DNA from: an uncultured Candidatus Cenarchaeum sp. | GTDB taxonomy: Archaea > Thermoproteota > Nitrososphaeria > Nitrososphaerales > Nitrosopumilaceae | Length of the DNA stretch: 64,000 nucleotides | NCBI GenBank assembly: GCA_958295735.1 | Contig: OY282369.1 | Span: forward strand, 852,161-916,160 | Reading direction: 5' to 3' | Shown: piece by piece, positions 8,382 through 62,727 of the stretch | Layout of the letters: the number at the start of each line of letters is the position of its first letter | Numbering within the stretch: position 1 is the first letter of the stretch | Made by a program: the position numbers and the translations under genes | The notes under the pieces: generated by a model | What the model saw: the letters and a program-made list of their open reading frames with translations, nothing else | Told to the model about the DNA's origin: nothing | Database searches by the model: none

Positions 8382-9490
8382 GAACCAAAACGAAGCGGCG
8401 CTGGGATGACTACCTCCTAAAGAGCGGCCGCAAGCACAGGGAGTTCTGGATCGAGTACCTCAAGTCTCCCAAGGACATCCTGTACGTCATGGGCGTGGGA
8501 TTTGATCCCAGAATGTGCGTAGGCATACGATCAGTGCTGGAAAGCGGGGGCGGCGGCATGCGCGACTGCATGCTAATAAGGTTCGCAGAAGGCCCCAACT
8601 CTGCCTCGGGCGACTTGAGTCCCGAAGTTGAGAAAAACGAGGAAGAGTTCCGGCGCACAACGGAGGGGCGGGCAACCCTGCGCGAAAGGCGCATACGCAT
8701 GGAAGATGACGATGGCCACAGGACGGGATCCGCTGAATCGGCCGCCATCTTCAAGAGCATCTCAGAGCTGAGAGGATACACGGACATAATCCTGGACATC
8801 TCGTCGCTCCCCTCGGGCGTATACCTGCCCCTTCTGGGCAAGATCCTCAGCCTGCTTGACGGATGCCGAGGCGGAGCCCCAAACCTGCACGTATTGGCCA
8901 CGGAAAACCCCGCCACGGACGGATCAATCCGAAAGTCGGGGCTGCAGGACAGGGCCAGCATCCTACACGGCTTTCCGGGAAGGCTCGGCACCGTTGCCGA
9001 CGAGGACAGCACCACCGTGTGGATTCCAGTTCTTGGGGAAGGGCAACAGGCGCAGCTGGAGAGGATCAGCGACATGGTAAACCCGAAGGAGATCTGCCCC
9101 GTCATTCCGTCCCCCTCGCGCAACCCGCGCAGGGGAGACGATCTGCTGCTAGAGTACAGGAATGTGTTCACAAGCCACATAGAGCCGCGCAATGTCATAT
9201 ACGCCGCCGAGAGCAACCCGTTCGAACTCTACCGCCAGATACAAGATGCCGTAGATCACTACCGGAAGGCGCTCAAACCCCTCGGCAACCCGCGGTTTGT
9301 CCTGTCCGCCCTGTCCAGCAAGCTTATGTCGATCGGCGTGTTTCTTGCAGCGTACGAGACGATGTCGCACGGTGACGATGTCGGCATAGTCCATGTGGAT
9401 GCTACCGGATATTCGTGGTCCAAGTCGGAAACCTCCCACGGCGACGAGGTGTTCTCCATGTGGATCTACGGAGAGTGCTACCGCCCCTAG
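8378..9490 (+). CDS. Cassette protein with two Rossmann-like lobes, function unknown
   Basis: 370 aa, not confidently assigned. Two alpha/beta lobes are visible. The first includes LYVMGVGFDPRMC (about 31-43) and a strand-loop-helix IILDISSLPSGVYLPLLG (about 137-154). The second has FVLSALSSKLMSIG (about 306-319) followed by an alanine-rich helix and the strand GIVHVDATG. The strand-Ser/Gly loop-helix arrangement with a Lys is loosely like the ligand loops of CARF-type nucleotide sensors, but no family is assigned. The GTG start overlaps the ATPase stop by 4 nt. As the last gene of a four-gene coupled cassette it may be a ligand sensor or effector. Confidence 0.6.
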   Translation: MRTKTKRRWDDYLLKSGRKHREFWIEYLKSPKDILYVMGVGFDPRMCVGIRSVLESGGGGMRDCMLIRFAEGPNSASGDLSPEVEKNEEEFRRTTEGRATLRERRIRMEDDDGHRTGSAESAAIFKSISELRGYTDIILDISSLPSGVYLPLLGKILSLLDGCRGGAPNLHVLATENPATDGSIRKSGLQDRASILHGFPGRLGTVADEDSTTVWIPVLGEGQQAQLERISDMVNPKEICPVIPSPSRNPRRGDDLLLEYRNVFTSHIEPRNVIYAAESNPFELYRQIQDAVDHYRKALKPLGNPRFVLSALSSKLMSIGVFLAAYETMSHGDDVGIVHVDATGYSWSKSETSHGDEVFSMWIYGECYRP

Positions 9491-9667
9491 CAGAGCCCCG
9501 AAACACGTTCGGCTCGGACGATCGGCCGCGACAGCGCGCAGAGCTGACCACCGCGCATAGCGGTCGAGCCGTGCGCGGAGACGGCGCGTCCAGCATGCCG
9601 ATCTGTAGGCGCGACGAGCGCCTACGGCACGAAACGGATCGCGCCGTGCGCGGAGACGGCGGCGTAC
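9491..9667. repeat. Intergenic spacer with hairpin and imperfect direct repeat
   Basis: No gene seen. A perfect 8-bp-stem hairpin, GTAGGCGC-GACGA-GCGCCTAC (about 9606-9626), lies after the cassette and could act as a transcript end. A direct repeat with core GCCGTGCGCGGAGACGGCG starts at 9568 and again at 9643; the flanks also match imperfectly over about 30 bp, with a period of about 75 bp. Confidence 0.55.
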
Positions 9668-9752
9668 GAGGTCAGGCGCTTCCGCCGTTAGGCGCTAACC
9701 CGGATCAACGAAAGCGTTTTCGCGCCCGTGACCGGCGGGTACGTGACCACGT
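9668..9752 (+). repeat. Dispersed 85-95-bp element, copy 1
   Basis: Copy of an intergenic element bounded by GAGGTC at the left and GTACGTGACC at the right, with the central words GGATCAACGAA and TTTTCGCGCCCGTG. Related copies occur at 57114-57209 (same orientation) and 58740-58822 (inverted), with partial or decayed copies at 58671-58722, 14164-14222 and 49600-49730. The loosely inverted ends suggest a MITE-like or structured RNA element. No coding capacity. Confidence 0.65.
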
Positions 9753-9800
9753 ACACGGTGGCCCTGTGAATACATAAAACCCTCCACCCTAGTCAACCGC

Positions 9801-10808
9801 ATGGGAAAGAGGCCCGCCTGCGTCGGCTCGGGGCTGGTGACGCTGGACGTCATATGCGGGGAAGGCGGCGGAAGGCCGGGCTTCTTCGCGGGAGGCTCGT
9901 GCGGCAACGTGCTGACCATCCTGTCGTACCTGGGCTGGGACTCGTACCCGATCGCCAGGCTGGGGGACGATCCCGAGGGGGACAGGATAGTGGAGGACAT
10001 GGGGCGGTGGGGGGCCAGGACCGACTTCGTGGGCAGGGAGCGGGGCTCCCCGTCGCCCAGGATCATAGAGAGGATCGCCCCCCGCGGCAGGGCGGGCCAC
10101 ACGTTCCACTTCGAGTGCGAGCACGGGAAGCGGCTCCCCCGCAGGATGCCGTGCACCATAAAGTCGGCCGGAGCGGCGCTTTCCGATATTCCCGATGCCG
10201 GCGTGTTCTATTTCGACAGGGCGGACAGGGGCGCCCTGGCGTTGGCGCGCGGGATGAAGGAGAAGGGCGCCGTCGTATTCTTTGAGCCCCCCAGGTTCAA
10301 GGACGGCGGCGACTTTGCCGAATGCCTGCGGATCGCCGACGTCATGAAGCGCTGCGGCGGGCCCGGCGGGATCGAGCCCGGGACCGGCGCCCCGCTGGAG
10401 ATCCAGACCATGGGGGAGGGCGGCCTCGCGTACAGGACGAATTCCGCCGGGAACGGATCCTGGAGGCGGATGGATGCGTTTCCGGTGCGCCGGACGGTGG
10501 ATGCGGCGGGATCTGGAGACTGGCTCTCGGCCGGCCTCATACACAGGCTGTTCGGCGGGGGATCCCGCGCGATTCCGGCGCCGGACAAGATCGAGGAGGC
10601 GCTCCGCTGGGGGTCGGCGCTGGCATCGATCAACTGCAACTTTGCGGGCGCCAGGGGGGCGATGTACCGCCTCTCCAAGAAAGAGATCTTCCGGCTCGCC
10701 GGCCTGGTAGTACGAAGCCGGAATGCGGCGGAGATCAAGGGCGCTCCCGGAGAGCTGCAACCCCACGGCCGCTCGCGGGAGTGCCGGATCTGCCTGTGCG
10801 GGGCGTAG
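9801..10808 (+). CDS. PfkB-family carbohydrate/nucleoside kinase
   Basis: 335 aa ribokinase-fold kinase. The N-terminal PfkB signature is FAGGSCGNVLTILSYLG (about 33-49), and the C-terminal signature contains DAAGSGDW with the catalytic Asp near residue 240 in the GSGD anion hole. Substrate unknown; PfkB kinases act on sugars, nucleosides or sugar phosphates. The C-terminus ends in an unusual Cys pair (CRICLCGA). A TATA-like ACATAAAA (about 9772-9779) lies about 25 nt before the ATG, so the gene has its own promoter rather than being read from the upstream cassette. A decayed copy of part of this gene lies at 13668-13885. Confidence 0.82.
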   Translation: MGKRPACVGSGLVTLDVICGEGGGRPGFFAGGSCGNVLTILSYLGWDSYPIARLGDDPEGDRIVEDMGRWGARTDFVGRERGSPSPRIIERIAPRGRAGHTFHFECEHGKRLPRRMPCTIKSAGAALSDIPDAGVFYFDRADRGALALARGMKEKGAVVFFEPPRFKDGGDFAECLRIADVMKRCGGPGGIEPGTGAPLEIQTMGEGGLAYRTNSAGNGSWRRMDAFPVRRTVDAAGSGDWLSAGLIHRLFGGGSRAIPAPDKIEEALRWGSALASINCNFAGARGAMYRLSKKEIFRLAGLVVRSRNAAEIKGAPGELQPHGRSRECRICLCGA

Positions 10809-13903: not shown

Positions 13904-14011
13904 CGCTGTGAAAAGGGGCCGAATCGCGCGGCCTGCGGCCGTCGTTTCGGCTGTCGGCCACGAATACGTGGCCCGCTGTGAAAAGGGGCCGAATCGCGCG
14001 GCCTGCGGCCG
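13904..14011. repeat. 38-bp direct repeat around a 32-bp insert (period 70)
   Basis: An identical 38-bp sequence, starting CGCTGTGAAAAGGGG, occurs at 13904-13941 and 13974-14011. The 32 bp between the copies (13942-13973) is unrelated to the repeat and contains a hairpin, GGCCACG-AATA-CGTGGCC. It is intergenic. It shares its geometry with the sites at 14932, 21041, 28163, 52456, 56830 and 62620, although the repeats themselves are unrelated in sequence. Confidence 0.85.
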
Positions 14012-14931: not shown

Positions 14932-15040
14932 GGGGCGAAAGGCAGTGCGGGCGGCGGGATTTGAACCCACACAAGCCGGACAAATATGCACGGGGATGGA
15001 AGGGGCGAAAGGCAGTGCGGGCGGCGGGATTTGAACCCAC
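14932..15040. repeat. 39-bp direct repeat duplicating the tRNA-Leu 3' end (period 70)
   Basis: A 39-bp sequence beginning GGGGCGAAAGGCAGTGCGG occurs identically at 14932-14970 and 15002-15040. The second copy includes the 3' acceptor strand and T-arm of tRNA-Leu; the first is a detached duplicate. The 31 bp between them (14971-15001) is unrelated and more AT-rich than the surroundings. It could be read as an attachment-site footprint, but the 70-bp period matches several non-tRNA sites. Confidence 0.85.
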
Positions 15041-15100
15041 GAACTCCTGAGAGACTAGCCCCTCAAGCTAGCGCCTTTGGCCAGGCTGGGCGACGCCCGC
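15017..15100 (-). tRNA. tRNA-Leu (anticodon GAG)
   Basis: 84-nt class II tRNA. The 7-bp acceptor stem is GCGGGCG / CGCCCGC. The anticodon stem CTAGC/GCTAG encloses loop TTGAGGG, giving anticodon GAG (Leu). A long variable arm and the T-loop TTCAAAT are present. No intron and no encoded CCA. The 3' 24 nt are duplicated 70 bp away at 14947-14970. Confidence 0.93.
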
Positions 15101-27339: not shown

Positions 27340-28327
27340 CTAGCTGTCAAGATACTCCTCCCCCGTGTACTCATCTTTGACTGTTTGCCCCTTTTCGGGC
27401 ATCTTCCGCGCGAACGCCCTGGCAGGCGTCCCCGGCGTGCTCTGGTCCGGGGAGCCGCGGGGCCTGCCGCGGTCGTGCCGCTGGACGAACTCGTCTATCC
27501 CGCCGAACCGCTCGATCTTCCTCTGGATCTCGCCGTGGAACCTCTCTAGCATGCCGTCGGTCCGGGGATGCCCCACCCCCGCCAGGACGTGCCTCACGCC
27601 CAGCTCGTCCAGCCTCCTCTCGAACTCCGTCCTGCCGCGCTTCCTGGCCTCGGACTCGCTGGCGCAGGACTGGGACCCGTGGTCGGTCATGACGGAGGCG
27701 GGCCTGCCGCGCCCGGCCATGGCCTTCTCGAGCACCTCCAGGGCGTGCTTCCCCGCGGCCTCGTCAAACACGCCGTAGCCCGCGACGAACCTGGATGCGT
27801 CGTCTTGGCACGCCATGAACCACCTCCCGTCGGGGAGCAGCTTGTAGTCGGCGTGCCGCATGGTGTTGGAGTGCGTCCTCTCGAACCTGATCCGCTCGCG
27901 CCTCCTGCCCTTCTTCGGGTGCTCCACCGCCGTCCCCTTCTTCAGCACGCGGTGGATGGTGTTGTGCGGTACGGCGATCCTCGCCGTGACTGCCACGATC
28001 CGCTCCAGCCGGGACGCGCCCGTCCTGCACTGGCGGAACGCCTTCTCCACCGAGATCTTGACGTGGTCCTGGATCTCCTTCCTCGGCCTGTCCCGTACGC
28101 CCAGCGCGGGCACCTCCCCCGTCCTGCGGCACAGGGCGTAGATCTGCCGTGCGCGGCGCGGCAAGACCTCCATCCGGGCCGCGATCTCGACGCTCCGGCC
28201 CACGGCGATCAACACGGCCGCCGTTGTCGAGAAAAAGCCCCATCCGGGCCGCGATCTCGACGCTCCGGCCCCCCTTCTTCATCTCGTCCACTATCCACTT
28301 CACCTTGACGGGATCCAGTTTCGCCAT
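27340..28327 (-). pseudogene. Frameshifted IS481-like DDE transposase
   Basis: The frame begins at ATG 28327 (MAKLDPVKVKWIVDEMKK, a helix-turn-helix region) and continues to GRSVEIAARM. The sequence coding GRSVEIAARM is then repeated after a short insert, 70 bp further on, and the original protein resumes in another frame down to 27340. Removing 70 bp restores one continuous 305-codon frame. The downstream part has the rve catalytic core: ACQDDASRFV, VMTDHGSQ and HPRTDGMLERFHGE. The insertion therefore disrupts an otherwise intact transposase. Confidence 0.82.
28163..28271. repeat. Direct repeat interrupting the transposase (period 70)
   Basis: 32 bp are identical between 28170-28201 and 28240-28271 (core CATCCGGGCCGCGATCTCG), with degenerate matching for about 7 more bases to the left. 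The insert between the exact copies (28202-28239) is unrelated. The event adds 70 bp and shifts the reading frame of the transposase. Confidence 0.85.
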
Positions 28328-30492: not shown

Positions 30493-30531
30493 CGGCCGGG
30501 TACACACTTACCTCCCCCCCCCCCCTCCCGG

Positions 30532-30667
30532 CGCCCCCCGCGCGCCCGGGCTGCCCCGATCGGCGCGCGCCGCGCGATCGCGGCCGGAGCGGGGATCCTT
30601 CGGCGGGCGGGCGCCGCCCCCCGCGCGCCCGGGCTGCCCCGATCGGCGGGCGCCGCGCGATCGCGGC
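30532..30667. repeat. Subterminal 53-bp direct repeats of the IS66-type element
   Basis: Copies at 30532-30584 and 30615-30667 differ at one position and share GCGCCCGGGCTGCCCCGATC. They lie inside the left end of the insertion sequence, where transposase-binding repeats would be expected. Confidence 0.75.
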
Positions 30668-30776
30668 AGGGTTCGGGGCATTTTCGGCGCGCGGCCGCCC
30701 CGGTACGGCGCTCCGTCCCGATGCCTGACGCGGGCTGACGCCGCCCGCGCGCGCCCGGCAGATCCGCTGGGGCCGG

Positions 30777-49599: not shown

Positions 49600-49730
49600 C
49601 CCCGCCAGGCTGGAATCCGGATCTAGTGAGTTTTCGCGCCCGCGGGCGGCCGGCTCCTGCGCGCGCGAGGCCGGCAACCCCCCACGCGCGAATCCGGGGG
49701 CGTCCTCGCGCCCGCGGGCGGCCGGCCCCG
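49600..49730 (+). repeat. Two decayed copies of the dispersed element in tandem
   Basis: Both copies carry GAATCCGG and then TCGCGCCCGCGGGCGGCCGG (start of that word at 49634 and 49706, period 72). The second is preceded by GAGGCCGGCAACCCCC, matching the left end of the dispersed element (GAGGTCGGCAACCCCC). They occupy most of the 250-bp spacer between thioredoxin and IPK. Confidence 0.55.
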
Positions 49731-49774
49731 GCGCCGGCTTATACTTTTTATCTGCCGGCGCCGCACCCGCGCCC

Positions 49775-52179: not shown

Positions 52180-52191
52180 CGGTATAAAATA
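52180..52191 (+). promoter_or_regulatory. gltX TATA box
   Basis: GGTATAAAATAG, the clearest TATA box in this part of the window. A start site about 25 nt downstream (near 52211) is compatible with the proposed CTG start and would leave a leader of over 100 nt for the TTG at 52323. Confidence 0.65.
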
Positions 52192-52226
52192 GGCGCGGGC
52201 CCCGCCGCGCGCGGGGGCGCTGGCGG

Positions 52227-54008
52227 CTGGACGCGGAGGTCGAGGGGGAGGCCAGGAGGCTGGCGCTGCTCAACGCGGCCGCGCACGGGGGCCGCACGTC
52301 CGGAAAGATACTGCTGTCGAAGTTGCTCGGCGCCAGGCCCGATCTCAGGGGGAGCGCCGCCGCGCTGGCCCCCGAGATGGAGAGGATAGCCGGCGAGGTA
52401 TGCGGGATGGCGCCGGAGGAGCTGGAGGAGGCCGCGGCGGCCGGGCGTTCCGCCGGGAAAAAAGAGGAGTCCCTGCCCGGGCTGGAGGGCCCGATGAGGA
52501 CCATCGTCGCGACCATGTCGATGGGCTGGAAAAGGGAGGGATTCCTGCCCGGGCTGGAGGGGGCCGAGTACGGGAAGGTGGTCACGCGGTTCCCCCCCGA
52601 GCCCAACGGGTACCCGCACATCGGCCACGCGAAGGCGGCCATCATAAACGAGGAATACGCCAAGATGTACGGCGGCAGAAAGATACTCAGGATGGACGAC
52701 ACGAACCCCGGGGCCGAGAGGATGGAGTACTATGCCGCCATAAAGGTGGGGCTGGAGTGGCTGGGGATAGAGTACGATACCGTGAAGAACACCTCGGACG
52801 ACATGGACGCGCTGCTCGCGAAGGGGCAGGAGCTCGTGGAGTCGGGCGGCGCCTACGTGTGCACGTGCAAGAGGGACGACGTGGCCAGGAACAGGAGGGC
52901 CATGTCGGAATGCAGGTGCCGCCCCCCTACAGGAGGCGACCCGGACGAGCACTCGAAGAGGTGGCACCGCATGTTCGAAAAGTACAAGCCCGGGCAGGCC
53001 GCCGTGCGGTTCGTGGGCGACATGTCCTCGCCGAACACGGTGATGCGCGATCCCGTCCTGTTCAGGGTGACCGACGAGAGGCACCCGCTGCTGGGCACCA
53101 GCTACAGGGTCTGGCCGAGCTACGACTTTGCCGTCGCGGTCGAGGACAGCATGGACGGGGTCACGCACGCGCTCCGGTCCAAAGAGTACGAGCTGCGCAA
53201 CGAGCTGTACGGGGCCATACTGGAAAGGCTGGGCATGCGCGCGCCCCGCGTGGCTGAGTTCTCCAGGCTGGAGCTGGAGGGCATGCCCGTGTCCAAGCGC
53301 GCCCTCCGGCAGCTCATGGACGACGGCAAGGTGGGGTGGTACGACGACCCGCGCCTGCCCACGCTGGAGGCGCTGAGGAAGAGGGGGATCGCGCCGGAGG
53401 CCGTGCGGCGGTTCGTGGCCTCGCTCGGCATGACGAAGACCAACACGACGGCCCCGATCGGCGCGCTGGAGGCCTTCAACCGCACCTGCATAGACGCCGC
53501 ATCGACGAGGCTGTTCATGGTGGAAAGGCCCGTGTCGCTGGAGGTGTCCGGGGCGCCGGCGCCGCCGGCCACCGTCCCCAACCATCCCGGAGAAGCGGAG
53601 ATGGGGGACAGGGAGATACCGCACGAGGGCGGGCGGCTCTACATAGAATCAAGCGATGCCGAAAAGATGCCGGCGGGAGGCAGCGTGTGGCTGATGGGGC
53701 TGGGCAACGTGAGGCTGGACGGCGGCAGTCCGGGGGGCGGCCTGCGCGGCGCGTACGAGGGGGGCCCCGCGCGGGAGGGAGTCCCCCGCGTGCAGTGGGT
53801 GCCGCAGGAGGGAGCGCACCGGCTGACGGTGCTGGTGCCCGGGGCCCTGATCATAGACGGCAAGTTCAACGAGGACAGCCTGCGGGAGCTCGAGGTCCTC
53901 GCGGAACCGCACTACGCGGCCGTCCCTGACGGTAGCATGATACAGTTCGTCAGGTTCGGGTACTGCAGGAAAGAGTCGCACCGGACGGCGGTGTACGCGC
54001 ACAGGTGA
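52227..54008 (+). CDS. gltX: Glutamyl-tRNA synthetase (archaeal class I)
   Basis: About 593 aa. FPPEPNGYPHIGHAKAA carries the HIGH motif near residue 131, VSKRALRQL is the KMSKS equivalent, and a C-terminal beta-barrel anticodon-binding domain follows. The helical N-terminal region (DAEVEGEARRLALLNAAAHGG) is typical of archaeal GluRS, but its only start-like codon is a CTG at 52227, about 16 nt after the TSS predicted from GGTATAAAATAG; the first conventional start (TTG 52323) would delete it. A 24-residue in-frame insertion that repeats LPGLEG precedes the catalytic domain. Confidence 0.9.
   Translation: MDAEVEGEARRLALLNAAAHGGRTSGKILLSKLLGARPDLRGSAAALAPEMERIAGEVCGMAPEELEEAAAAGRSAGKKEESLPGLEGPMRTIVATMSMGWKREGFLPGLEGAEYGKVVTRFPPEPNGYPHIGHAKAAIINEEYAKMYGGRKILRMDDTNPGAERMEYYAAIKVGLEWLGIEYDTVKNTSDDMDALLAKGQELVESGGAYVCTCKRDDVARNRRAMSECRCRPPTGGDPDEHSKRWHRMFEKYKPGQAAVRFVGDMSSPNTVMRDPVLFRVTDERHPLLGTSYRVWPSYDFAVAVEDSMDGVTHALRSKEYELRNELYGAILERLGMRAPRVAEFSRLELEGMPVSKRALRQLMDDGKVGWYDDPRLPTLEALRKRGIAPEAVRRFVASLGMTKTNTTAPIGALEAFNRTCIDAASTRLFMVERPVSLEVSGAPAPPATVPNHPGEAEMGDREIPHEGGRLYIESSDAEKMPAGGSVWLMGLGNVRLDGGSPGGGLRGAYEGGPAREGVPRVQWVPQEGAHRLTVLVPGALIIDGKFNEDSLRELEVLAEPHYAAVPDGSMIQFVRFGYCRKESHRTAVYAHR
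52456..52564. repeat. In-frame 72-bp repeat-insert-repeat inside gltX
   Basis: About 37 bp at 52456-52492 reappear at 52528-52564 with about eight mismatches; the central 18 bp from CCTGCCCGGGCTGGAGGG are identical. The insert between the copies is unrelated. The protein reads LPGLEG twice, 24 residues apart. Only the second copy is at the normal distance from the catalytic start (PGLEGAEYGKVVTRFPPEP), so the first copy plus insert look like an added segment. Confidence 0.72.
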
Positions 54009-55711: not shown

Positions 55712-56857
55712 GTGAAGGTCCAGCGGGTCAAGGTTCTCGAGGCGGACGACAGCTTCGGGATGCTGCCGCCGGCCAGGGCGATCGAGATAACGACCGACAG
55801 GGGGCGCGCGGTCACGCCGGACCGGTGCGCCACGTCCTACGAGTTCGCCAAGAAGGCCGAGGTTCCCACGAGCGTCGGCATCGGCAACCGCGTTTCCGTC
55901 TACTGCAAGCACCTCACGGGGCGCGACGTCGGGGCCCTGCTCGCCTCCAACGGCGCGTTCGGCGCCCAGCTGCGGGCGATGGAAAACGTGGATCGGATCA
56001 CGGGGTATTCTGTCCTGCACGTGCCGGTGTTCCGGCTGGCCAAAACCGCGTCGGTCGGCAAGGCGCCGATGGAGATCCTGCGGGGGGACAACTTGGACAA
56101 GTTCCTCCGGATCCTGATCATCCTGCAGGAGGAGGCCGGGCACGACATGATCTCCGTCCCGCATCTGGACATGCCGCTGGGGGACCTGAAAAAGACGCTG
56201 CGCGGCGCGCACGAAGCCATAACCAAGATCGGCAAGCAGGCGGTGTTCTCGCTGGACATGCGGTATGGGCGGTTCCCCGAGCTGCTGGACTATGTGGCGG
56301 ACGATCTGCAGGCAGGCGTGCTGAACCTGCACTACGCGGAGAGGCGCGACGTCCCGCGGCATTACGAGCATCTGGGGGGCTTTGCCGGAAGGGAGATCGC
56401 CTTCCTCATGACCGGCGTGGATCGGGAGGACGCGGACCGCGGCGGCCTGTCCACGATGCACTACATGCCGTTCCTCGGGTGCGACCTGCTTGCCGTGCGG
56501 CCGCCGCGGCCGGCGGGGCGCGCACTGCGGGGCGCGTCCAGAATGCGGAGCCTGCGGGTGATGAACCGGGACGAGCTGACCATAGTGCCGATCATGGGCA
56601 AGAAGGTGCCGATAAGGAGCATCCTGGACCAGCTGGACAGCCCGAGATCCGACGACCTGAGCGCATGCCTGCGCAACGTGGGGAAGGCCGAAAAAGATGA
56701 GGAAAAATACAGGAGCGTCAGCGCCCTGACGCGGCTGCAAGAGCTGCTGGCCAGCACCGACGAGTTTTCGGCGCTGGCAGAGCACATCAGGAAAAGATCG
56801 GCGAAAGAGTACGTGCGGGGCAAGAAGGGCCTGGAGCGGCGGCTGGAAGGCGTTTGA
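55712..56857 (+). CDS. Unknown 381-aa partner protein
   Basis: 381 aa, not recognised. The middle is an alternating alpha/beta pattern that could be a TIM barrel: ISVPHLDMPLGDLKKTL, QAVFSLDMRYGRFPELLDYV, GVLNLHYAERRDV, IAFLMTGVDREDAD, then FLGCDLLAVRPPR. The C-terminal 100 residues are helical. Loose resemblance to tRNA-guanine transglycosylase-type barrels is noted but not claimed. GTG start 1 nt after the YwgA-like gene indicates a two-gene unit. The last codons (GLERRLEGV) are duplicated downstream of the stop by a 71-bp event. Confidence 0.6.
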   Translation: MKVQRVKVLEADDSFGMLPPARAIEITTDRGRAVTPDRCATSYEFAKKAEVPTSVGIGNRVSVYCKHLTGRDVGALLASNGAFGAQLRAMENVDRITGYSVLHVPVFRLAKTASVGKAPMEILRGDNLDKFLRILIILQEEAGHDMISVPHLDMPLGDLKKTLRGAHEAITKIGKQAVFSLDMRYGRFPELLDYVADDLQAGVLNLHYAERRDVPRHYEHLGGFAGREIAFLMTGVDREDADRGGLSTMHYMPFLGCDLLAVRPPRPAGRALRGASRMRSLRVMNRDELTIVPIMGKKVPIRSILDQLDSPRSDDLSACLRNVGKAEKDEEKYRSVSALTRLQELLASTDEFSALAEHIRKRSAKEYVRGKKGLERRLEGV

Positions 56858-56936
56858 GGAGCCCGCAGTCCTTATTCTGGTGGGCCTCCACGATGCTGGA
56901 CCTGGAGCGGCGGCTGGAAGGCGTTTGAGGAGCCCG
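56830..56936. repeat. 36-bp direct repeat at a gene end (period 71)
   Basis: 36 identical bp (start CCTGGAGCGGCGGCTGGAAG) at 56830-56865 and 56901-56936. The first copy holds the last codons and stop of the 381-aa gene. The 35 bp between copies (56866-56900) is unrelated and less GC-rich. Confidence 0.87.
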
Positions 56937-58822: not shown

Positions 58823-59035
58823 GCACCCGGAGGCGTGTAGGCTTACGTCCAAACCGAAACCACGCCTAGCGGCAGCAAACCACCCCCCGATCCCGCGCCC
58901 AGATCACAATGGACGCAAGTCTGCACCCGGAGGCGTGTAGGCTTACGTCCAAACCGAAACCACGCCTAGCGGCAACAATCCGCTCCGCGATCCCACGCCT
59001 AGATCACAGTGGACGTAAGTCTACACCCGGAGGCG
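58823..59035 (+). repeat. 100-bp tandem repeat (2.1 copies)
   Basis: Two full 100-bp units starting GCACCCGGAGGCGTGTAGGC at 58823 and 58923, and a third truncated start at 59023. The first two units differ at about a dozen positions, mainly after position 52. The start word CACCCGGAGGCGT also occurs at 58725, 99 bp earlier. An inverted copy lies at 63449-63539. The last partial unit abuts the promoter of the next gene. Confidence 0.88.
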
Positions 59036-62007: not shown

Positions 62008-62649
62008 TCACGGGGCGGGCTTGCGGCTCTTGAACCACGCGGCGAACCGCTCCAGCGCCTTCCGCCTGTGCGAGATCGCGTCCTTGCGGCCCGCGGCGGC
62101 CAGCTCGGCGAACGTGGGCGCGCGCGCGCCCCGGGGCGCGACGGGCGCCCCCACCGCAGCAGCGCCGGCGGCCGGCCCGGCGGGCACGAATATCGGGTCG
62201 TACCCCCACCCCTTCCCCCGCGGGCGGTCAAGCACCGTCCCCCGCGCCTCGCCGGAGAACGCGGCCGTGGCGCCCCCGTGGCCCGCGTACGCGACCGCGG
62301 CGCGGAAGGTGGCGGTGCGGGGGAGCCGGCGGCAGCGCTCCGCGCGGAGCAGGGCCGGCACGGCCCCGAGCCCCACGGTGCGCAGCGCGTGCGACGAGTA
62401 CGGCCCCGGAAACCCGCCCAGCGCGTCCACGTACAGCCCCGAGTCGTCCGCTATGGAGGGCCGCCGGCACTCGCGGTAGGCCTGCGCGGCCTTGTGCGCG
62501 GCTATCTCCTCCAGCGAGTCGGACTGGATCTCCTGCAGCCTGCACTGCAGGAACCCGGCCGACACGCCCAGCCCCTCCAGTATGGCCGAGGCCTCGGCGA
62601 ACTTTTCGGCGCTCGAGGAGGCGAACATCACGTCGCGCGACCCGCTCAC
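62008..62649 (-). CDS. RdgB/HAM1-type dITP/XTP pyrophosphatase
   Basis: About 213 aa. MFASSSAEKFAEA (substrate loop), SIADDSGLYVDAL, GFPGPYSSH, GKGWGYDPIFVP and ISHRRKAL are the canonical HAM1 blocks. It removes non-canonical nucleoside triphosphates. Start codons are ambiguous: GTG 62649, GTG 62631 and ATG 62628 are in frame. The start region lies inside a 37-bp sequence that is duplicated 71 bp upstream, so the present start may be shifted from the ancestral one. Probably in an operon with bud32. Confidence 0.88.
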   Translation of the reverse strand: MSGSRDVMFASSSAEKFAEASAILEGLGVSAGFLQCRLQEIQSDSLEEIAAHKAAQAYRECRRPSIADDSGLYVDALGGFPGPYSSHALRTVGLGAVPALLRAERCRRLPRTATFRAAVAYAGHGGATAAFSGEARGTVLDRPRGKGWGYDPIFVPAGPAAGAAAVGAPVAPRGARAPTFAELAAAGRKDAISHRRKALERFAAWFKSRKPAP

Positions 62650-62727
62650 GCCCGCCGGGACCTCCCGGCGCGCCGCTGCCTCCCGTCCGGGGCGAGCATC
62701 ACGCCGCGCGACCCGCTCACGCCCGCC
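62620..62727. repeat. 37-bp direct repeat at the rdgB start (period 71)
   Basis: 37 bp at 62620-62656 reappear at 62691-62727 with two mismatches (shared CGCGCGACCCGCTCACGCCC). The 34-bp insert (62657-62690) is unrelated. The first copy covers the possible start codons of rdgB; the second lies in the bud32-rdgB spacer. Confidence 0.87.

Follow-up and report, generated by a model that had tools for sequence, protein, structure and literature searches.

The 24-residue insertion in gltX, the glutamyl-tRNA synthetase (GluRS) gene of this Candidatus Cenarchaeum genome, is in all likelihood the product of off-target CRISPR adaptation, in which Cas1-Cas2 integrated a spacer into the gene with duplication of a 36-bp target. 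The evidence lies in the anatomy of the insertion and of its counterparts across the genome, the lengths of their parts, the existence of empty sites, the presence of integrase genes and an array in the host, the chromosomal origin of some inserts and a bias towards G at the target ends; from these features we infer Cas1-Cas2 as the agent. The assignment of gltX to off-target integration is based on the genome-wide pattern, as the event could not be assigned if taken alone. Throughout, the window is the whole stretch of 64,000 nucleotides that was analysed, numbered from its first letter.

The insertion in gltX

The gene and the parts of its repeat are located in the window as follows.

52227 to 54008, plus strand: gltX, archaeal-type glutamyl-tRNA synthetase (Pfam tRNA-synt_1c, 6.9e-75; N-terminal alignment to relatives)
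52456 to 52489, plus strand: first copy of the ~36-bp target-site duplication, with 34 bp of clear identity, encoding ..KKEESLPGLEG
52490 to 52527, plus strand: spacer-like insert of ~36 bp, encoding PMRTIVATMSMGW, unlike its flanks and missing in relatives
52528 to 52561, plus strand: second copy of the target-site duplication, encoding ..KREGFLPGLEG, identical to the first at 29 of 34 positions

The first-pass annotation had proposed an in-frame insertion of 24 residues just before the catalytic domain of GluRS, whose closest solved relative is 3aii, Glutamyl-tRNA synthetase. This insertion is real. The frame 52323-54008, part of an open frame that begins further upstream, remains open through the repeat (...SLPGLEG-PMRTIVATMSMGWKREGFLPGLEG-AEYGKVV...), LPGLEG is read twice at a distance of 24 residues, and the added segment abuts, on its N-terminal side, the catalytic domain that starts at residue 85 of the TTG-started ORF. 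The two copies of the direct repeat (52456-52489 and 52528-52561) are separated by 72 bp from start to start and are 85% identical, with 5 differences in 34 aligned bases instead of the "about eight" given at first. The description of the event as a 72-bp duplication had to be corrected as well, only about 34-36 of the 72 bp being duplicated and the other ~36 bp consisting of unrelated inserted DNA.

GluRS N-termini from 17 Nitrosopumilaceae, including the same-genus genome G001, could be aligned with this protein, and the extra PMRTIVATMSMGWKREGFLPGLEG was present in none of them. The insertion is thus limited to this genome among those compared, and the possibility that the 24 residues are an ancestral feature of the archaeal GluRS family, which had been named as the alternative, was rejected. 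Once the segment is removed, the protein has the common length of its relatives, and its LPxLEG lies as far from the N-terminal domain as theirs. The gltX genes of the relatives, with a single copy of the repeat, represent the empty site.

Because the 72 bp added are a multiple of three, gltX gained 24 codons and kept its frame. The kept frame shows that the insertion is tolerated, rather than that it brings a benefit, and the synthetase that carries it presumably still works.

No significant copy of the gltX insert was found in the sampled chromosome. The insert resembles the array spacer L005:10787 (21/23 identity, E 2.4e-4), a likeness that is not significant against random genome segments: 8 of ~1940 such segments passed E 5e-4 and 45 inserts were tried, which places the resemblance within chance. 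A degenerate 23-mer common to the insert and this spacer had no match in viral contigs, and with the spacer likeness within chance, a viral origin of the insert was rejected.

Neither ATG, GTG nor TTG occurs near the homologous N-terminus of gltX (positions 52188-52330 were inspected), the first such start being the TTG at 52323. The gene may start at a CTG at ~52227, which fits the homologous start, or at another unusual codon. A TATA-like box is found at ~52182, upstream of the candidate CTG.

Sites with the dimensions of a CRISPR unit

That gltX is one case of a pattern recurring across the window, as had been suggested, is borne out by similar pairs at 13904, 14932, 28170, 56830 and 62620, with spacings of 70-71 bp, copies of 32-39 bp and unrelated inserts of 31-38 bp. 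These sites, and one probable older site, are listed below without strand.

13904 to 14011: dispersed site, spacing 70, identical 38-bp copies with a 32-bp insert between them
14932 to 15040: dispersed site, spacing 70, identical 39-bp copies, the right copy spanning the 3' end of a tRNA-Leu gene (15015-15100, minus strand)
28163 to 28271: dispersed site (~28170), spacing 70, within an rve-type integrase element whose paralogs represent the empty site with an exact 70-bp gap
49634 to 49734: probable older site, spacing 72, 29-bp copies with 2 mismatches, upstream of the ATG of an amino-acid-kinase-family gene
56830 to 56936: dispersed site, spacing 71, identical 36-bp copies, duplicating the 3' end and stop codon of the ORF 55712-56857
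62620 to 62727: dispersed site, spacing 71, 37-bp copies with 2 mismatches

The site at 14932-15040 has left a duplicated fragment of the tRNA-Leu 3' end downstream, which could be mistaken for the attachment site of an integrative element. Two other kinds of repeat were observed in the window. One is a 59-bp repeat at 30529-30670 (spacing 83, 95% identical), which falls outside the 68-75 bp class and may differ in origin. The other belongs to a ~95-bp family (GCACCCGGAGGCGTGTAGG...) found at 58823-59022 and at many other loci, e.g. L010:11979-12171 and L016:12427-12515. This family has very many copies in the genome, sometimes in tandem, and is unrelated to the 71-bp pattern; the insertion sites L088:2495, L108:8422 and L117:11825 adjoin members of it.

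The search was extended to 1.424 Mb of sequence (45% of the genome) in stretches spread across it, with a strict filter for direct-repeat pairs with copies of 30-43 bp and at least 88% identity, and spacings from 20 to 200 were compared. At spacings of 68-75 the filter retained 35 pairs in the 1.424 Mb, where 0.97 were expected (Poisson p ~1e-41), and this pile-up excludes chance for the gltX repeat. The other 173 spacings together gave 21 pairs, 19 of them at multiples of 3, the spacings to be expected of protein repeats. Scaling from the 45% sample, assumed to be representative, gives about 80-95 sites in the whole genome, and we take 80-100 as the estimate.

Copies are identical at 15 of the 27 well-defined sites, and gltX, with 5/34 differences, is the most diverged of the 27, its duplication being recognisable over 34 of 36 bp. 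The earlier proposal that the gltX event is old, to be dated relative to the other sites, is therefore upheld, and the process must span a long time and is probably continuing. An assembly error, already doubted on first inspection, is unlikely, given that the structure recurs in dozens of unrelated loci that differ in sequence and in how far their copies have diverged.

Over all good sites the spacing is unbiased modulo 3 (7:8:12). Four insertions are located unambiguously within genes, and each of them is a multiple of 3 (gltX 72, L021 69 and 72, L118:8977 72); most of the remaining sites are outside predicted ORFs or at gene ends, the ORFs used for this placement having been called from length and the composition at codon positions alone. 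Such a distribution would be expected of a process that inserts with little regard to genes and whose harmful products are then eliminated.

As the geometry of the sites is that of one CRISPR repeat-spacer-repeat unit, a CRISPR system was sought in the genome. A single cas1 was found, fused to cas4 and with cas2 adjacent; the best PADLOC models were Cas1g and Cas2g, Pfam confirmed Cas1, Cas4 and Cas2, and the genes adjoin the array. Type I-G adaptation genes, an array and at least two effector components are therefore present in this genome (G000).

G000:C1:2939609 to ~2981980 (L149, L005, L003), on one strand: CRISPR array with 531 copies of a 36-bp repeat
~C1:2932-2936 kb: type I-G Cas7 (PF09617) and Cas3-HD
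G000:C1:1150733-1155253 (L190, L192): second type I-G effector set, PF09617 Cas7 and Cas3-HD, far from the sole cas1 and the array

Within the array, 14 spacers form a block that occurs twice (L005:3269-4238 = 8990-9959), and the repeats are interrupted for 1.3 kb at 2946164-2947501.

The 393 spacers read measure 33-39 bp, nearly all of them 34-38 bp with a mode of 35, and the array period is mostly 70-74 with a mode of 71. With a repeat of 36 bp, spacers of 34-38 bp and a period of 71-72 bp, the array has the dimensions of the scattered sites: the spacing is 70.9 +/- 1.1 at the dispersed sites and 71.6 +/- 1.1 in the array (KS p 0.09). Mean copy length at the 27 well-defined sites is 36.9, compared with 36 plus the 0.82 of chance extension expected at this base composition. 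At the two sites where an insert source fixes the boundaries, the duplication is exactly 36 bp: the 31/32 copy of the 13904 insert at C1:2818136-2818167 shows this site to be a 36-bp duplication with a 34-bp insert, and L118:18282 has an insert of 35 bp.

Relatives were sampled as well. The nearest one, G001 of the same genus, lacks cas1 and gave no dispersed sites in 400 kb by the same filter. In 240 kb of G016, a genome with both cas1 and an array of period ~71, none was seen outside the array, so that possession of the genes is insufficient. Two more genomes with cas1, G057 (~129 kb) and G015 (a small sample of 49 kb), likewise gave none. Among the relatives sampled here, then, carrying cas1 is not generally accompanied by the pattern, and something in this lineage permits it.

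Inserts, nascent arrays and empty sites

Near-full-length copies in the sampled chromosome were detected for about 6 of 45 inserts, such as that of L091 (33/34, 9.4 kb distant), versus none of the 393 array spacers (Fisher p 9e-7). The genome is highly repetitive, with a second copy for 23% of random 34-mers, and the number of self-matching inserts is for this reason weak evidence alone. The evidence for self-origin is that, in the source matches examined in detail, the similarity breaks off at the insert ends or no more than one or two bases from them, boundaries that repeat families would not explain. That no self-matching spacers were seen in the array would fit a loss of self-targeting ones there and their tolerance at silent sites. 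No common PAM was visible in the source flanks (~7 cases).

When the first duplicated bases of both ends were pooled, G was found in 34 of 54 cases and T in 0 of 54, with a background of 0.354 for G; this bias gives moderate support, 24 positions having been examined. A preference for hairpins or palindromes at the targets, as in the CRISPR repeat, was not found, the mean stem score being below random.

Three copies of the target with two different inserts are present at L088:2495-2672, L107:9985-10167 and L100:241-415, and these are small nascent arrays. Extra copies were also seen at L122:10418, where the inserts resemble each other and part of the structure may reflect ordinary duplication. 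The insert at L114:16450-17340 has two matches within 1 kb (17233 and 17305), beside further copies of the flank, and this locus is perhaps an expanded or rearranged nascent array.

Target duplications around self-derived inserts would also be produced by a Cas-free, templated-insertion repair of staggered double-strand breaks, in which overhangs of ~36 nt are filled and a stray fragment of ~35 bp is joined, and several inserts are indeed chromosomal copies. However, such repair explains neither the narrow range of lengths (spacing 68-75, mean 70.9, sd 1.1) nor their match to the CRISPR array, it does not account for the sites with three copies and two inserts, and no sites were found in the same-genus genome that lacks cas1; we consider it very improbable.

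A mobile element (a MITE, a casposon or another transposon) with a ~36-bp target duplication, which left an insert or scar of ~35 bp, has in its favour that an insert flanked by a target duplication is a transposase-like signature and that Cas1 and casposases are related. Against it, the inserts have no common sequence or terminal repeats and are unlike each other, apart from two at L122, so that a common mobile insert was rejected. Moreover, no element with the same 36-bp duplication was found in the genome, and the lengths equal those of the genome's own CRISPR repeat plus spacer. Casposons in particular are kilobases long and duplicate far less of their target (about 14-15 bp), which counts against them here. 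A mobile element is accordingly a very unlikely source of these sites.

Empty sites were found within the genome itself. The site L021:14486 is in an IS66-type gene, and the four same-genome paralogs compared have one copy and no insert; site 28170 is in an rve-type element with several paralogs, of which those aligned are exactly 70 bp shorter; and the transposase paralogs of L091:11644 lack exactly 71 bp. Together with the gltX genes of the relatives, these empty sites directly show that the event is an insertion of spacer-length DNA with duplication of the target. A 72-bp tandem duplication or replication slippage, after which half of each unit diverged, is suggested by the direct repeats, by the fixed spacing within one gene and by protein tandem repeats elsewhere in the genome, but it is hardly credible, as many sites have ~36-bp copies that are 100% identical around a wholly unrelated ~34 bp, which divergence cannot yield, the empty sites in paralogs consist of a single copy with no insert, and certain inserts can be matched over their full length to distant loci. 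In its simple form it is refuted for the recent sites, the repeated part of those with identical copies being only 34-40 of 68-75 bp.

Probable off-target integration by the host adaptation machinery

Off-target integration by Cas1-Cas2 would proceed as follows. The type I-G Cas4/Cas1-Cas2 integrase would capture a prespacer of ~36 bp and attach one of its 3' ends to each strand of gltX, at points about 36 bp from each other, just as it does with the ends of a CRISPR repeat; gap filling by host repair would then leave the 36-bp target duplicated on each side of the insert. Prespacer capture, joining one repeat length apart and gap filling are the established chemistry of spacer acquisition. 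The same reaction would have taken place an estimated 80-100 times on this chromosome and, in at least three places, repeatedly, giving rise to nascent arrays.

The process itself is known; what appears to be new here is its natural scale and the retention of an insertion in an essential protein. Nivala, Shipman and Church (2018) reportedly described "neo-CRISPR" loci, mostly from an overexpressed type I-E integrase in E. coli, and are said to have found a few natural cases, in Yersinia pestis and Sulfolobus islandicus. The sites described here resemble the E. coli loci in the spacer-length insert, the repeat-length target duplication outside the array and the possible birth of arrays. They differ in that they occur in an unmanipulated archaeal genome with a type I-G system, at ~80-100 sites by extrapolation, and in that they include several nascent arrays, self-derived inserts and an in-frame insertion kept in an essential enzyme. 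Off-array integration in E. coli on Cas1-Cas2 overexpression is cited in a passage of PMC11788318, and the study of Nivala and colleagues also in one of PMC9456107. The literature searched, which was mainly open-access, yielded no description of dozens of off-array events in a natural genome or of an off-array insertion kept in an essential protein.

The G bias has a counterpart in the type II-A Cas1-Cas2 of S. thermophilus, whose off-target integration in vitro prefers guanine at the integration point, with T the rarest base, a preference called common to diverse Cas1 proteins (PMC6895254). Those were in vitro and probably half-site events on plasmids, whereas the events in Cenarchaeum are full-site and fixed in the chromosome. 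For a type I-G Cas4/1-Cas2, the same type of module as here, the relevant passages of PMC10504553 describe smears in vitro with some substrates, suggesting nonspecific integration, and spacer-side integration at the correct site of only 60-70% with processed substrates; chromosomal off-target insertions are not reported in those passages. In Sulfolobus islandicus, the accessory factor Csa3a binds Cas1 and has been proposed to stop integration outside arrays (PMC9456107), a restraint that in the present genome appears weak or lost.

Our guess is that restraint of Cas1 was lost in this lineage. The wider reading, that the lineage lost whatever confined adaptation to the array and that the integrase became a genome-wide mutator, adding ~35-bp snippets (self DNA included), 36-bp duplications, new arrays and new peptide segments in essential proteins, is one for and against which we lean about equally.

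Most of what is known about off-target integration comes from overexpression and in vitro experiments, and descriptions of adaptation usually confine it to the array. An estimated 80-100 natural scars of differing ages, with empty sites and some sources, make the frequency of such events testable, and likewise the preference of the integrase in the absence of a leader, the birth of CRISPR arrays and any contribution of integration to protein evolution. They also serve as a warning that pairs of short direct repeats and odd in-frame insertions in proteins can be the work of the immune system of the host. Dating of the sites across strains could turn them into a clock of adaptation activity, and if restraint has indeed been lost, CRISPR adaptation would be a source of novelty for the genome and the proteins of this lineage.
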